From contig JAJONL010000005.1 of the NCBI GenBank assembly GCA_021323395.1, forward strand, positions 1 through 62,262: a DNA stretch of 62,262 nt. The letters are read 5' to 3'. The translations under genes and the position numbers were made by a program. Shown here piece by piece: positions 13,748 through 27,912 of the stretch. This DNA comes from Nitrospira sp. GTDB taxonomy: Bacteria > Nitrospirota > Nitrospiria > Nitrospirales > Nitrospiraceae. Under the pieces are notes generated by a model that was given only the letters and a program-made list of their open reading frames with translations, had not been told where the DNA came from and searched no databases. Positions within the stretch are counted from its first letter, which is position 1. Each line of letters starts with the position of its first letter.

Positions 13748-13924
13748 ATGAATAAACTGATCGCAGGACTCGCGAGTGGACTTCTGACATTGCAGACGAC
13801 TGCTGCATTCGCCAACGTGAGTGAAGGACCGCCGGATTATAGCGGGATCACGGGGCTGTATTACACATTGATCGCTATTGTCTTGGCTTACGGAGTCTAC
13901 GACACATTCTTTAGTAAGAATTAG
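13748..13924 (+). CDS. Small exported or membrane protein (58 aa)
   Basis: An ideal ribosome-binding site (AGGAGGAAATC) precedes the ATG. The product has a signal-peptide-like N-terminus (MNKLIAGLASGLLTLQTTAAFA, likely cleaved after Ala22), a short polar stretch (NVSEGPPDYSGITG), one transmembrane helix (about 37-51) and a YDTFFSKN tail. A TACAAT at 13702-13707 is a plausible -10 element with TTGCGT 18 bases before it. Function unknown; the shape resembles small subunits attached to membrane complexes. Confidence 0.65.
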   Translation: MNKLIAGLASGLLTLQTTAAFANVSEGPPDYSGITGLYYTLIAIVLAYGVYDTFFSKN

Positions 13925-13938
13925 CCCCGCGCAGTTGC

Positions 13939-14787
13939 TCACTTATTGCGTGAAGTGTCGCTCCTACCCGAGGAGGAGGGTGTGGTGTTCCTCGCCTTCC
14001 TTTTCGTATCGGGAGAGGCGTCCTTCCTTTGATCGAGGAGGGGAAGCAGGATTTTTAGTACATTGTCTGCCACAATGCGATACCCTTCTCCGGTCGGATG
14101 AATGCCATCAGCCTGATTGAGCGACTTATCTCCTCCTACTCCTTCAAGAAGAAACGGGACCAGCGGAAGCGCATGGGTCGTGGCCAGTTCCCGATACATC
14201 GCTTCGAATCGTTCCGTGTATTCCCTGCCATAGTTGGGGGGGAGTTTCATCCCGACTAGAAGTACTGGTACACGCGCTTCTTTGAATCGACTGATGATGG
14301 TGTCCAGGTGAGAGCGCGTTTCTGGAAGGCTTAAACCCCGTAATCCATCGTTCCCTCCTAATTCCAGTATTACCATGTAAGGTTTGGCGGCGAGGATCCA
14401 CGCGACTCGACGCAGGCCGCCAGCCGTAGTTTCCCCGCTGACTCCGGCATTGACGACCTGATACGAATGCCCCAGGGCATCGAGCCGCCTTTGCAGCTGC
14501 GTAGGGTAGGATTGTGCTGGGGAAACTCCAAGGCCGGCGGTCAAACTATCGCCAAAGGCAACAATTCGAAGTCGATCGTAGGAGGGGGTGGTCGTTGTGA
14601 GCGAATCCGGTTCATGGTGAGATAACTCGTCGGTCGATGAGTGAGAAGCGGAGGCAGCAGCGGGTTCCGGAGTAGAGGTAGATGAAGTGGATTGCTCGCA
14701 TCCAAGCACTCCGATCAATACGGCGGCCAACATGCATGTCGTCCTCACAGGGACAGCAGGTCGGAACGGCTTCAAACAGTTCGTCAT
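13939..14787 (-). CDS. tesA: TesA-like GDSL esterase / lysophospholipase, lipoprotein
   Basis: SGNH hydrolase with all blocks: AFGDSLTAG with nucleophile Ser81, an oxyanion Gly in NAGVSGETT, GGNDG, and the DGIHPTGEGY block with Asp and His. The N-terminus ends in a lipobox (LIGVLGC, Cys30) followed by a Ser/Thr/Pro-rich linker, so it is probably anchored on the periplasmic side. The C-terminal 25 residues are basic and low in complexity. It is transcribed away from ybbA-ybbP with 56 bases between starts, the same arrangement as E. coli tesA-ybbAP, where TesA acts with the ABC complex on hydrophobic compounds. Confidence 0.92.
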   Translation of the reverse strand: MTNCLKPFRPAVPVRTTCMLAAVLIGVLGCEQSTSSTSTPEPAAASASHSSTDELSHHEPDSLTTTTPSYDRLRIVAFGDSLTAGLGVSPAQSYPTQLQRRLDALGHSYQVVNAGVSGETTAGGLRRVAWILAAKPYMVILELGGNDGLRGLSLPETRSHLDTIISRFKEARVPVLLVGMKLPPNYGREYTERFEAMYRELATTHALPLVPFLLEGVGGDKSLNQADGIHPTGEGYRIVADNVLKILLPLLDQRKDASPDTKRKARNTTPSSSGRSDTSRNK

Positions 14788-14843
14788 CTGTACAGTATAA
14801 TAAAAATCTATCGAGAGCGTTTCGCTACCCGATTCATATTGAA

Positions 14844-15548
14844 ATGATTGCCGTTCAACATCTTACAATGCAACTCACGGCTGCCGGTCAGAAGGTCACA
14901 ATTCTCAATGACCTTTCCTTTGATATTCCAGATAAACAAAAGGTCGCGATTGTAGGGCCCTCGGGCAGCGGCAAATCAACGCTGCTTGGTCTGATCGCTG
15001 GTCTGGATTGCCCTACCTCCGGCACCATTTGGCTCAACGGTGTGGAAATTACAAGGTTGCGCGAACAGGCGATGGCACGCTTGCGCCTTGCCAATGTCGG
15101 GTACATCTTTCAGTCGTTTTATCTCATCCCGACCTTGACGGCATTGGAGAATGTGGCGGTCCCTCTCGAACTCTCAGGGGATGGGGGGGGGCGACAACGA
15201 GCTCACGAACTACTGCATGCCGTGGGGCTCGGGCACCGTATCTCGCATTATCCTGTCCAGCTCTCGGGTGGCGAACAACAACGGGTGGCCGTCGCGCGCG
15301 CCTTCGCCTGTCGTCCACCAATCCTTCTGGCCGACGAGCCCACCGGTAATTTGGATTCGAATACCGGACAACAGATTATCGATCTGATTCTTGCCATGCA
15401 TCGAGACGTGGGGACGACGCTCGTTCTCGTCACCCACGATCACAACTTGGCTGCTTCCATGGAACGCGTGATCACTCTCCGGGATGGCCGGATCGCGTCC
15501 GACGAACTGTCTTACCTTCAGCATAGGATCTCCGACCACGATCGATGA
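14844..15548 (+). CDS. ybbA: ABC transporter ATP-binding protein, YbbA (LolD-like)
   Basis: A standalone ATPase of 234 residues with Walker A (GPSGSGKSTLL), a Q-loop (YIFQSFYLIP), signature LSGGEQQRVAVARA, Walker B with ILLADEPTGNLD, and a switch His (LVTHDH). The NLD after Walker B is typical of the MacB/LolD/YbbA type VII family. The start at ATG 14844 (MIAVQHLTMQL) was chosen over the longer frame from 14682, which would run into the divergent tesA. The stop overlaps the permease start (ATGA). Confidence 0.93.
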   Translation: MIAVQHLTMQLTAAGQKVTILNDLSFDIPDKQKVAIVGPSGSGKSTLLGLIAGLDCPTSGTIWLNGVEITRLREQAMARLRLANVGYIFQSFYLIPTLTALENVAVPLELSGDGGGRQRAHELLHAVGLGHRISHYPVQLSGGEQQRVAVARAFACRPPILLADEPTGNLDSNTGQQIIDLILAMHRDVGTTLVLVTHDHNLAASMERVITLRDGRIASDELSYLQHRISDHDR

Positions 15549-23666: not shown

Positions 23667-25370
23667 TCAACGGTGGGCGCGATGTTTGAGGGTGGGCCGC
23701 TTCTTCGCGACGGGCTTACGGCTGCCGGCTTTGGTCGGAGTGAGCAGGGCGACGAGGCTACGAACCGTACTCACGGGATCTCGGCCCAGCGTGATGTGGG
23801 AAGCCGGACGGTGGTGACTTTGGAGAGATTGCAGATCGCCGATGGCTTGGGCCTGTGCCAGCGTGCCGAAGGTATAGAATTTCCCGGGAACCGGCAGATC
23901 GGGTTTCATCGTATCAATCAATTCGAGAAAGAGGCCGCTGTTTGGGCCCCCCTTGTGTAACTGCCCCGTCGAATGCAGGTAACGGGGACCATACCCTGCC
24001 GTCGTGGCAAGGTGATGTCGCACCATGATGGCCTTTCGCAGGGCTCGCAGGGCGGCCTCCATTTGGGGAGAGGGTGTGGTATAGGCCAGGATAGATAAAT
24101 AGCGATTCGGCGCGGCCTGTTCGAGCAATTGAGTCAAGGCCTGCTTCGGAGTGGACGCCGGCAGCGGAGGCAAGTTGCCCTTGATTTCCACTTCTTTCAG
24201 GACGCGTCCGGTATTATCTTTGCTCTCCTGTACATTCGGTTGATCGAAGGGATGGATGCCGAGTATGTGTCCTGCAATGGCCGTGGCGAATTCCCAACGG
24301 AAAAACTCGCCGCCGAGATCGTAACGATCTGCCAGGTCCAGGCGAAGGACGGGATGGCCGGCGCGTTGTAGGGCCGTGACGGATCGATCCAGCGATGTGT
24401 TGCGATCGCCTTTCAGCCGAAGATGCACGAACACTCGATCCGTTCCGTAAAATTTGGGGGCCGCGAGGGGCTCGCCTGCAATCGGGACGAGGCCTGTCCC
24501 TTCCTTGCCGGTACTTTCCGCAAGTAGTTGTTCCACCCACAGTCCGAACGAACTCATGGACGGCGATGTGATAAGGGTCAGCTTATCCCGTCCCGCTTGA
24601 ACCATGGTTCCCATCATGGCGCCGAGTGCTGCCCCCGGATTGTCTTTCACCGGTGATGTCTTTCGGCAGGCTTCTCGCATCGCCAGGGCTCTCGTGAGGA
24701 GTTTGTCGATGTCCAGTCCAAGCAGGGCGGCGGGAATTAAACCAAAATACGATAGGACGGAATATCGTCCGCCGATGTCTGGAGGATTGATGAAGGTGCG
24801 CCAGAAGCCGCGCTCACGCGCGAGTTGCTCAAGTCCGGTCCCAGGATCGGTGATTGCCACAAACTGGGCCCCACCTCGATTCCCTTTCGTCTGCCGTACG
24901 ATTTCCCAAAAGTGGGCGAAGAGGGACATGACCTCGATGGTGCCGCCGGATTTGCTCGCGACTAGGAATAGAGTTCTTGCGGGATGAATGGTCGTAGTGA
25001 CATGGCGCACCCACCCGGGCACGGTCGAATCCAGCACCCACAGCCGAGGAAAGCCTTTTGAAGAACCAAACGTACAGCGAAGGACTTCGGGCCCTAAGCT
25101 GCTCCCTCCCATTCCCAGAAGCACCACGTCGGTCGTGGAGGCTTCGCGGGCGGCTTGGGTAAACGAGCGGAGGTCGGCCAGCCCATCGTGCATGTGGTCG
25201 AGAACGGTCAGCCAGCCAAGCCGGTTTTCAATCTCCGTGGGATCAGATTTCCAAAGTGTGTGGTCTCTTGTCCATAGTCGTTCGATCGCATGGCTGTTTG
25301 CCAGGTCGTCGAGCGTCTGGCTGATATTGTCGTTGTCCAATAACTGCGGTTTCCTGGGGCCTGTTCGCAT
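23667..25370 (-). CDS. pgi: Glucose-6-phosphate isomerase
   Basis: Interconverts glucose-6-phosphate and fructose-6-phosphate. The protein of 567 residues contains DVVLLGMGGSSLGPEVLR, LFLVASKSGGTIE and GGRYSVLSYFGLIPAAL, the SIS-fold substrate loops. It is closest in look to the isomerase half of the fused transaldolase/glucose-6-phosphate isomerase proteins; no transaldolase part is attached here. The C-terminus is a basic tail (SRKPVAKKRPTLKHRAHR). First gene of the pgi-pgl-glk-rpiA-pepN operon, with a 183-base gap behind it. Confidence 0.94.
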   Translation of the reverse strand: MRTGPRKPQLLDNDNISQTLDDLANSHAIERLWTRDHTLWKSDPTEIENRLGWLTVLDHMHDGLADLRSFTQAAREASTTDVVLLGMGGSSLGPEVLRCTFGSSKGFPRLWVLDSTVPGWVRHVTTTIHPARTLFLVASKSGGTIEVMSLFAHFWEIVRQTKGNRGGAQFVAITDPGTGLEQLARERGFWRTFINPPDIGGRYSVLSYFGLIPAALLGLDIDKLLTRALAMREACRKTSPVKDNPGAALGAMMGTMVQAGRDKLTLITSPSMSSFGLWVEQLLAESTGKEGTGLVPIAGEPLAAPKFYGTDRVFVHLRLKGDRNTSLDRSVTALQRAGHPVLRLDLADRYDLGGEFFRWEFATAIAGHILGIHPFDQPNVQESKDNTGRVLKEVEIKGNLPPLPASTPKQALTQLLEQAAPNRYLSILAYTTPSPQMEAALRALRKAIMVRHHLATTAGYGPRYLHSTGQLHKGGPNSGLFLELIDTMKPDLPVPGKFYTFGTLAQAQAIGDLQSLQSHHRPASHITLGRDPVSTVRSLVALLTPTKAGSRKPVAKKRPTLKHRAHR

Positions 25371-25553
25371 AGCACGCTCTCTTCCATAGGTGGAGGAACG
25401 AATCGATGCAAGATGTCCGGTTTGTATCTTAGGTTCGCGTATTCAAAAACGCAAACGGGGAGATCGCCGTGCGCGCGCTCGGTCATGGATGAGGAGATGA
25501 AGAAATGGTTGGAGCAGACAACTGCGTCGGAAGATGGCAGAGCGCGGGAGTTG

Positions 25554-26705
25554 CTAGGTTTCTTCCTCCTGATCGTCTAGATCGGCCAATACCAGAGAAA
25601 CGGAATTGTGTGATTCCAAAGCGCCGACGATCGTGACCGGCGTCCCTACGGACACCTGATCAAAGAGCCTGGCAATCTGTGGATTATCCAGGAGGATGCT
25701 CCCAAACGGTTGATCCGTGATGCCCTGGGCTATGCCATGCAGCTGGATCAGGCCTGGCATGGGTTGGCTCCGTGGAATCAACCCCGCCTTTTGCGCTGCT
25801 TCGAAGCGTCGGCGGTCGTCAGCATTGGGATAATCGAGAATAAGTGCGCGGAAGTAAGGCGTTTGTCCAGACCCGCGCTTGCGATGAATGCGATATTCAC
25901 CTTCAGGAGTGGCACCGTCTCCATAATGCTGCTTGGCCCGAATTCCTCTCGAGCCCAATCGGATTGGATAGGTCAACACCTTTCGACCGTTCTTATAGAG
26001 CGAGAGAACTCGGTCGGCCTTACTGATCACAATCGATTGCGCCCGGTGAGTTCGGGACCATTCGATGGTGCGTTGGGCAGATTCTCTCCAGGCTGCAATG
26101 AGATCGTCATCCGCGTAGCGGCCCAATTCATTGGTGAGCAATGCGGTTTGCGTGAGAAGGATTTTGCCGGCTCGGTCTGATGTTTGGACTGCCTGCTCAA
26201 ACTGCCCCTGTTCCAGGAACAGGCGGGCTTGTTTCACGAGCAGTTCCGTTTCTACGGGATGTTCGCCGAGGACCACACGACTTCCAATATCACCCACGCG
26301 GGTGTTCAGTAGTCGCAGCCGTTGCTCGACCTTCGCCAGCTTTGCCTCGACGGAAGTCCGCTGTGCCTGAAGGCGTGTGTTGACGTCTGCAACGAGCCGG
26401 GTCCCTAAGGTCTGAAGTGATTCCAACTCGTTCTCCAGCTCATTGTCTTCCCAGGGCCATCGAACGATATTTTCTTCAGATTGCACACGAGCCCGCAGCG
26501 CCATCCATTGACGGTTGAATTTCGAGTATCCTTCGGGACTGATGTCTGAGGCTCGTAACGTCACCAGGTCCCGGTCAAGGCTTTCAATGGCCTCAACCAG
26601 CTCGTCCGGGACGGTTTCGACGCACCCACCTAGGCCCATCGACAGCAGTCCGACAAGCACTAGACTCGGGAGGGTGCGATGGATGTGGTTTAAGGGCCGG
26701 CTCAT
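25554..26705 (-). CDS. YkuD (L,D-transpeptidase) domain lipoprotein lacking the catalytic Cys
   Basis: Predicted lipoprotein (lipobox GLGGC, Cys28). A helical, partly coiled-coil region (about 30-215) is followed by a YkuD domain (about 220-365) that begins SIVISKADRVLSLYKNG. The family motif HGx14-17SxGC should give a Cys. Here the His is present (LIQLHGIAQG), but the motif reads QPFGSILLDNPQIARL with Ser in the Cys position. The codon is AGC on the coding strand. L,D-transpeptidases form an acyl-enzyme on that Cys, so this protein is probably inactive or uses other chemistry. It may be a cell-wall binding or scaffold relative. Confidence 0.88.
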   Translation of the reverse strand: MSRPLNHIHRTLPSLVLVGLLSMGLGGCVETVPDELVEAIESLDRDLVTLRASDISPEGYSKFNRQWMALRARVQSEENIVRWPWEDNELENELESLQTLGTRLVADVNTRLQAQRTSVEAKLAKVEQRLRLLNTRVGDIGSRVVLGEHPVETELLVKQARLFLEQGQFEQAVQTSDRAGKILLTQTALLTNELGRYADDDLIAAWRESAQRTIEWSRTHRAQSIVISKADRVLSLYKNGRKVLTYPIRLGSRGIRAKQHYGDGATPEGEYRIHRKRGSGQTPYFRALILDYPNADDRRRFEAAQKAGLIPRSQPMPGLIQLHGIAQGITDQPFGSILLDNPQIARLFDQVSVGTPVTIVGALESHNSVSLVLADLDDQEEET

Positions 26706-27205: not shown

Positions 27206-27343
27206 ATGTCGTTCACTTTTAAGCAGCCCTCGAATCTCAAGCGCAAGCGAGAACATGGATTTCGGAAGCGCATGAGCACAAAGAACGGCCGAAAAGTCAT
27301 CGCCCGTCGTAGGGCCAAGGGTCGCGCCCGTCTCACCGTTTGA
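27206..27343 (+). CDS. rpmH: 50S ribosomal protein L34
   Basis: A basic 45-residue protein with the standard L34 sequence pattern ([19 protein letters not shown] and [12 protein letters not shown]). It has a good ribosome-binding site (GAGAAGGAGTGCGCA). It leads the rpmH-rnpA-yidD-yidC-mnmE cluster. About 200 non-coding bases separate it from rnpA. Confidence 0.97.
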
Positions 27344-27543
27344 TTCTTCCCTGCCGCTACGCCATCTGCATGTAGCCAAGCATCCAGGTCGTGGATGGTG
27401 GCCTGAGGCTCGACCATCCTATTGCCCTGAGAGTAAGGGGCGATATGACACGACAGGGCACGGATTGAACTTAATCACGCGTCATCCAGCAGTCTCTATG
27501 CTGTTGGGATAGGCGGGCTCTACGACAGACAGGCGAGTTGTTC

Positions 27544-27912
27544 ATGGCGCAGGGACAAGGACCGGTGCCGTTTTTTTTGAAGCGCAGCCGTGATATTCAG
27601 CATATCAAGAAGGCGGGACGGCGCGTGTCGACCGGGTGGTTCAATCTCCAGTTTTGTCCGGATATGTTTCCCGATGTCATGCTGGGCATCGTGATCGGAC
27701 GACGGTTTGGCACAGCGGTTCGCCGGAATCGGGCAAAGCGCCTCTTTCGAGAGTTGAGCCGTTCGGTGCGTCCGGCCTTGATGCCAGGGTATGGATTACT
27801 GGTCTTTCCAAAACGAGAATGTCTGACGTTGCCCTTTGCGGAGTTGGAAAACATATGGCGAAGCACCTTGCGAAAACGGCAGTTGGCCCATTTTGGGGAG
27901 CCCGCCTTATAA
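27544..27912 (+). CDS. rnpA: Ribonuclease P protein component
   Basis: Basic protein subunit that helps RNase P RNA trim tRNA 5' ends. It has the [18 protein letters not shown] start and the signature region [19 protein letters not shown], which includes the conserved RNR motif. About 122 residues from ATG 27544; a TTG at 27538 is the alternative. Its last 58 bases overlap yidD in another frame. Confidence 0.95.

Follow-up and report, generated by a model that had tools for sequence, protein, structure and literature searches.

The gene examined here raises the question why a bacterium should keep an enzyme domain whose nucleophile has been exchanged. It lies in a stretch of 62,262 nucleotides from Nitrospira sp. 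(contig JAJONL010000005.1, referred to as the window) and was termed YKUD1. A preceding sequence-only reading had described its product as a YkuD-domain lipoprotein with serine in place of the catalytic cysteine, which was confirmed: the protein possesses a lipobox with Cys28, its domain scored 54.9 bits with the Pfam profile PF03734 (cut-off 23.4, E 2e-14), and the site of the catalytic cysteine is occupied by Ser336 (codon AGC). The active-site histidine is retained, as had also been stated (Table 1). The lipobox cysteine was found in all 150 aligned orthologues and is followed in YKUD1 by valine at position +2, which by the enterobacterial sorting rule would place the lipoprotein in the outer membrane. 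The predicted helical N-terminal region is conserved across the serine and cysteine clades. AlphaFold models built on shallow alignments revealed a mean pLDDT of 52.5 for the full-length protein (19 close sequences; YkuD part mostly <50) and 40.8 for the YkuD domain alone, values too low for a structural comparison. In the window's genome (3.5 Mb, 99.7% complete), four D,D-transpeptidase matches were detected, and the search for a second L,D-transpeptidase gave neither a further YkuD match nor a VanW match.

Table 1. Positions of YKUD1, its sequence elements and the flanking genes in the window
Feature	Position	Strand	Remark
YKUD1	25554..26705	minus	383-aa lipoprotein, YkuD domain without Cys; sole YkuD match in its genome
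Lipobox LGGC, Cys28 (predicted lipid anchor site)	26622..26624	minus	sequence
N-terminal region, residues 29-215, predicted helical	26061..26621	minus	helices at low-to-fair AlphaFold confidence
YkuD domain, residues 224-359	25629..26036	minus	Pfam PF03734 profile match
Lys258, aligned with DpaA Lys83	25932..25934	minus	alignment
His323, conserved active-site His	25737..25739	minus	motif IQLHG
Ser336, codon AGC, at catalytic Cys position	25698..25700	minus	motif DQPFGSILL
Short spacer between YKUD1 and pgi; site of YKUD2 and gene 3 in other genera	25371..25553		
pgi, phosphoglucose isomerase (PF00342), conserved downstream flank	23667..25370	minus	
Ribosomal protein L34 gene, divergent, conserved upstream flank	27206-27343	plus	
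RNase P protein gene, divergent, conserved upstream flank	27538-27912	plus	

Matches to the YKUD1 protein were present in 158 of the 175 genomes of the family. The nucleophile site was aligned for 150 of these orthologues, the other eight being split or broken copies; the alignment of G106 does not reach the site and was left out of the counts. Cysteine occupies the site in 118 of the 150. Of the 28 orthologues in the window's genus, 27 have serine and one (G025) has glycine; the single genome of the sister genus g25 also has serine, so that the clade formed by both genera comprises 28 serine and one glycine sequence. Outside this clade, serine was found in G180 (genus g30) and glycine in G065 (genus g21). 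All serine codons at the site are AGC or AGT, one base away from TGC or TGT. Serine is likewise present at 18 named loci with 81-91% identity, which group the genus with Candidatus Nitrospira defluvii and overlap with the clade set (for example, FP929003.1 agrees with G023 in its coordinates). Since all 29 aligned orthologues of the two genera are devoid of the cysteine, Ser336 is neither a sequencing error nor a chance match. The sequence-only reading had asked for conservation of the serine among orthologues, and this held, with one exception, for the genus and its sister genus, whereas cysteine occurs in other genera; serine is thus the derived state of one clade (plus the separate genome G180). 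The cysteine-type orthologues, which that reading had named as a possible refutation, leave the evidence for a retained function in the serine clade standing. A substitute cysteine at another position, which had been named as a possible objection, is excluded by the sequences, as no cysteine follows the lipobox in any of the 29 clade members. At the motif level, cysteine-type orthologues read GC[VI]M, the window protein GSIL and the L,D-transpeptidase YKUD2 (see below) THGCIR; YKUD1 therefore lacks both the cysteine and the subsequent arginine (GCIR) that mark a transpeptidase.

A YkuD match was found in 28 of the 29 genomes of the genus, and in 15 of these 28, including the window's and some drafts, YKUD1 is the only one. 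In most of the other 13, another YkuD protein is encoded, recognisable by the motif PASHGC. With the longer motif HGRDLPG[FY]PASHGC[IV], this protein has a scattered distribution (11 of the 28 genomes; L038, L043-L047, L049-L053) and is absent from the window's genome. A short cysteine-type YkuD protein of 190-196 aa (WTRGCIAV), weakly similar to YKUD1, was detected in G006 and G011 (L054, L055).

In other genera, YKUD1 is directly followed by YKUD2, whose product of about 213 aa contains the L,D-transpeptidase motif THGCIR; among solved structures, the YKUD2 profile matched the L,D-transpeptidase 4LZH and YkuD of B. subtilis. Behind YKUD2 lies a third gene (gene 3) for a protein of about 212 aa that begins with a signal-like sequence. 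Its product matched no Pfam or NCBIfam family, and its alignment contains no HG...GC motif. Comparisons by hhalign gave probabilities of 89% for gene 3 versus YKUD2, 0.2% for gene 3 versus YKUD1 and 58% for YKUD1 versus YKUD2; because two real YkuD families reach 58% against each other, the value for gene 3 can be taken as suggestive of a YkuD relative and not as more. Gene 3 was located at L113 (complement, between 1319 and 2116) and also at L114, L126, L164, L068 and L281-L290. At the family loci that were mapped, the three genes are flanked on one side by the divergent genes for RNase P and L34 and on the other by pgi or different sugar-phosphate genes. Genome-wide, YKUD2 was detected in 117 and gene 3 in 116 of the 175 genomes of the family, and neither gave a match in any of the 29 genomes of the window's genus. 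In the phylum sample, 63 of 198 genomes matched the YKUD1 profile. Ten full-length orthologues from outside the order all have the cysteine and an adjoining YKUD2, and gene 3 is present at nine of these loci (31-85 bits), the tenth stretch stopping just past YKUD2; the family's flanking genes were absent from the fetched stretches. G057, which belongs to another family of the order, contains two cysteine-type YKUD1 copies about 9 kb apart (L070:4252-6316 and 13769-14977), only one of which adjoins YKUD2. G109 gave no YKUD1 match and contains, at about 11980-12902 of contig C28, gene 3 together with the C-terminal portion of YKUD2.

The state of the nucleophile was compared with the presence of YKUD2, which was counted as present if the fetched stretch itself gave a strong match; direct adjacency was mapped for some of the loci. 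All 111 scorable orthologues with an intact YKUD2 have cysteine, and none of the 31 non-cysteine orthologues (29 serine, two glycine) has a YKUD2 match on its stretch. Five cysteine-type orthologues are without YKUD2 there: in G163, G182 and G070 the partner is absent genome-wide, in G193 it lies on another contig, and in G101 the stretch ends at a contig edge. Two further cysteine-type orthologues are accompanied by a YKUD2 fragment (G170, truncated; G115, split over two contigs), and the split YKUD1 copies of G099 and G117 have cysteine together with YKUD2 and gene 3. In a quick tree (LG+G4 search, with long branches for G065 and G070), three losses of the cysteine, all in YKUD2-less lineages, and four losses of the partner were counted. 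As the YKUD2-less branches, stems included, account for 14.8% of the tree length, the chance that three losses placed at random all hit them is, as a rough estimate, about 0.003; an independent-pairs test of cysteine state against YKUD2 comprised three pairs and had no power (p 0.5). A Fisher test of partner against residue at the level of single sequences was set aside, as it takes no account of relatedness. These data suggest that loss of the cysteine is tied to lineages without YKUD2, i.e. to an orphaned YKUD1. Relatives consisting of the domain only (176-206 aa, no N-terminal region) occur in ten genomes of other phylum groups. Five were fetched (L291-L295); cysteine was found in 3/3 read, and no close YKUD2 lies alongside (weak match in one). 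Hence, the dependency is specific to the cassette and not shared by YkuD proteins in general.

The consequences of partner loss are graded in genus g30. Between YKUD1 and pgi, G180, the genome with serine, still contains two fragments of YKUD2, which represent residues 1-66, as well as remnants of gene 3. Its closest relatives, G163 and G182, possess neither gene and have retained the cysteine, and so has G170, in which both genes are truncated. G171 has the cysteine as well, together with an in-frame loss of 27 residues around the Lys258 loop and a mere remnant of YKUD2. A complete YkuD domain can no longer be recognised in G162, G164, G167, G168 and G176, and four of these five copies contain stops. 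YKUD1 is absent from 16 of the 24 genomes searched (10 of them g30), where either gene could have gone first. From these broken, domain-less or absent copies it can be deduced that an orphaned YKUD1 often decays in g30. Many of the assemblies are fragmented, so that single broken copies (G170, G171, G180) may hold assembly errors; the clade-wide results do not depend on them.

Selection on the serine clade was assessed by pairwise Nei-Gojobori medians calculated with an own script, the pairs not being independent of one another. For the YkuD domain, the median dN/dS was 0.045 in the window's genus (139 pairs), 0.069 in partner-bearing g30 (54 pairs), 0.098 in g6 (576 pairs) and 0.183 in the orphan trio G180/G163/G182 of g30 (3 pairs only). 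The median ratio of dN to that of pgi was 0.54 in the genus, 0.60 in partner-bearing g30, 0.82 in g6 and 1.08 in the trio. The raw dN/dS values might suggest that the serine clade is more constrained than the cysteine groups; this was rejected, since relative to pgi the constraint is about equal. G025, which has glycine at the site, differs from G015 in the YkuD domain by a dN of 0.019 at a dS of 0.55, and this low dN indicates constraint even without a nucleophile side chain. The catalytic residue is thus lost while purifying selection continues, as is characteristic of a pseudoenzyme. Strong purifying selection without a nucleophile makes a non-catalytic or altered function, as the sequence-only reading had proposed, the best reading.

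Its further statement that the domain is otherwise well conserved applies to the fold core and not to the active-site loops. Among positions conserved to at least 95% in the cysteine group, 11 of 23 in the loops, the cysteine included, were switched in the serine clade, compared to 2 of 63 outside them (1/37 in the rest of the domain, 1/26 in the N-terminal region). In the same loops, 0-2 of 22-23 positions were switched in each of six control clades, of which two are nested. The loops were bounded after conservation had been seen, guided by the loops L1-L3 of the DpaA paper, and the figure of 11/23 is therefore partly post hoc. Invariant in all 29 clade sequences are Lys258, the GDGATPEG loop, His323, Gly324 and Gly335; Lys258 and His323 are also present in 117/117 sequences of the cysteine group. 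Changes within the pocket include Q261Y and F284Y, which align with Gln86 and Tyr109 of DpaA.

With moderate confidence, we regard YKUD1 as a former cysteine-dependent peptidoglycan hydrolase of the DpaA/YafK type that was retained as an outer-membrane pseudoenzyme after YKUD2 had been lost. The first match to DpaA among solved structures, the presence of Lys258 and the missing arginine make it likely that the ancestral protein was a hydrolase acting against YKUD2 or on the same stem peptides. It would have worked together with the L,D-transpeptidase YKUD2, plausibly by undoing or trimming its products; a carboxypeptidase is the alternative to a DpaA-like hydrolase. YKUD2 and gene 3 would then have been lost in the ancestry of the window's clade, leaving the hydrolase without substrate or partner, whereupon the cysteine may have changed to serine and the loops may have been rewritten on the stem of the clade, with the lipoprotein being retained. 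Apart from a missing substrate, the disappearance of a complex between YKUD1 and the products of YKUD2 and gene 3 would account for the dependency equally well. Catalysis is presumably absent today, to judge from the residue change, the natural glycine variant G025 and, by analogy, the inactive C390S mutant of LdtJ. The protein probably still binds the wall or another protein: the intact Lys258 and GDGATPEG loop point to the holding of stem peptides as a likely role, and the pseudo-active site, carried by a lipid anchor in the outer membrane and a helical stalk, would most likely engage either a stem peptide or a partner protein, with no turnover, as a tether or regulator. On the other hand, Q261Y and F284Y alter pocket positions of importance in DpaA, so that the ability to bind stem peptides may have been lost. 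Further points against the pseudoenzyme as we propose it are the cysteine kept without YKUD2 in G163, G182 and G070 and without a close YKUD2 in the domain-only relatives, and the conservation of serine in 28 of the 29 clade sequences, more often than a dispensable position would require.

The latter observation, together with the concerted rewriting of the surrounding loops, would also fit a Ser336 that serves as the active nucleophile of a rebuilt active site, in a serine-dependent amidase, carboxypeptidase or beta-lactam-reactive enzyme. A precedent might be seen in the YafK protein Lpg1514, which according to the excerpted text of PMC13400389 hydrolyses beta-lactams in a serine-dependent manner; however, as described there, the working residue is Ser132, elsewhere in the pocket and off the cysteine position. 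Moreover, G025 is constrained with glycine at the site, and the available part of PMC12548408 reports that a cysteine-to-serine exchange inactivated LdtJ, so that we consider an active Ser336 unlikely. It is also rather improbable that the YkuD domain is a mere structural cap and that the selected function resides in the N-terminal helical region and the lipid anchor. The N-terminal region is indeed little altered (1/26 switches), but within the genus its dN/dS of 0.080 exceeds that of the YkuD domain (0.045), and the framework of the pocket is invariant.

Very little, finally, can be said for a slowly decaying relic on its way to the pseudogenes seen in g30. It is true that the orphaned gene of that genus is often broken or absent and that dN/dS is raised among G180, G163 and G182 (3 pairs), but the 28 copies of the window's genus and the one of the sister genus are full-length open frames, which already contradicts decay, and their YkuD domain evolves at a dN/dS of 0.045 with a dN about half that of pgi.

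A more far-reaching idea, which we offer tentatively and think rather doubtful as a whole, is that the three genes constitute an undescribed envelope cassette comprising a lipid-anchored DpaA-like eraser, an L,D-transpeptidase as writer and a secreted third protein, whose orphaned eraser became a non-covalent binder of the wall or of a partner. This cassette would occur in Nitrospiraceae and in certain further groups of the phylum, its third protein may be a degenerate YkuD protein, and successive stages of its breakdown would be preserved in living genomes. In the open-licence literature covered (titles and abstract openings), neither a YkuD pseudoenzyme in Nitrospira nor such a cassette is described. 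The stages would run from the intact cassette over remnants with cysteine and no cassette with cysteine to loss of the cysteine, followed by loss of the domain or retention of the protein without cysteine, a series that makes the fate of an eraser after loss of its writer testable. If this is true, one Nitrospira clade has switched from covalent to non-covalent envelope tethering and harbours a naturally evolved YkuD pseudoenzyme, present throughout the clade, the origin of which can be related to the loss of its partner enzyme. Since YKUD1 is the sole YkuD protein in 15 of 28 genomes, neither YkuD-made 3-3 crosslinks nor YkuD-attached wall proteins are predicted there.

Among known systems, DpaA (LdtF/YafK) of E. 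coli is the closest, its entry PDB 8IKR ranking first among the solved structures matched by the YKUD1 profile (E 1.1e-6). The equivalent of its Lys83 in loop L1, described in the excerpted text of PMC10653827 as mDAP-binding and required for activity, is invariant in YKUD1 (Lys258). Both are without the arginine behind the nucleophile, which the available part of PMC8263019 gives as absent in DpaA, and YKUD1, too, is predicted to be a periplasmic wall protein. Unlike YKUD1, which has Ser336 at the corresponding position, DpaA uses Cys143 and frees Lpp from peptidoglycan, as stated in PMC8263019 and PMC10653827. YKUD1 differs furthermore in being lipid-anchored and in containing a helical region that spans about 190 residues, and it scored 26.5 bits with the DpaA/YafK equivalog NF040599 (cut-off 365), a cysteine-type orthologue reaching 32.5. 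The second solved match (E 3.4e-4) is Csd6, the L,D-carboxypeptidase of Helicobacter pylori (PDB 4XZZ/4Y4V). YKUD1 and Csd6 share the hydrolase-type YkuD fold, but Csd6 is an active cysteine enzyme and the match is weaker. Csd6 is not known to carry a lipid anchor. Lpg1514 of Legionella pneumophila is likewise a YafK-like lipoprotein and, unlike YKUD1, keeps its cysteine (Cys174) according to the same excerpt of PMC13400389. The C390S variant of LdtJ from Acinetobacter baumannii contains the same exchange in a YkuD enzyme, but it is a laboratory mutant of a transpeptidase; in the available part of PMC12548408, its authors suggest that LdtJ has non-enzymatic roles.
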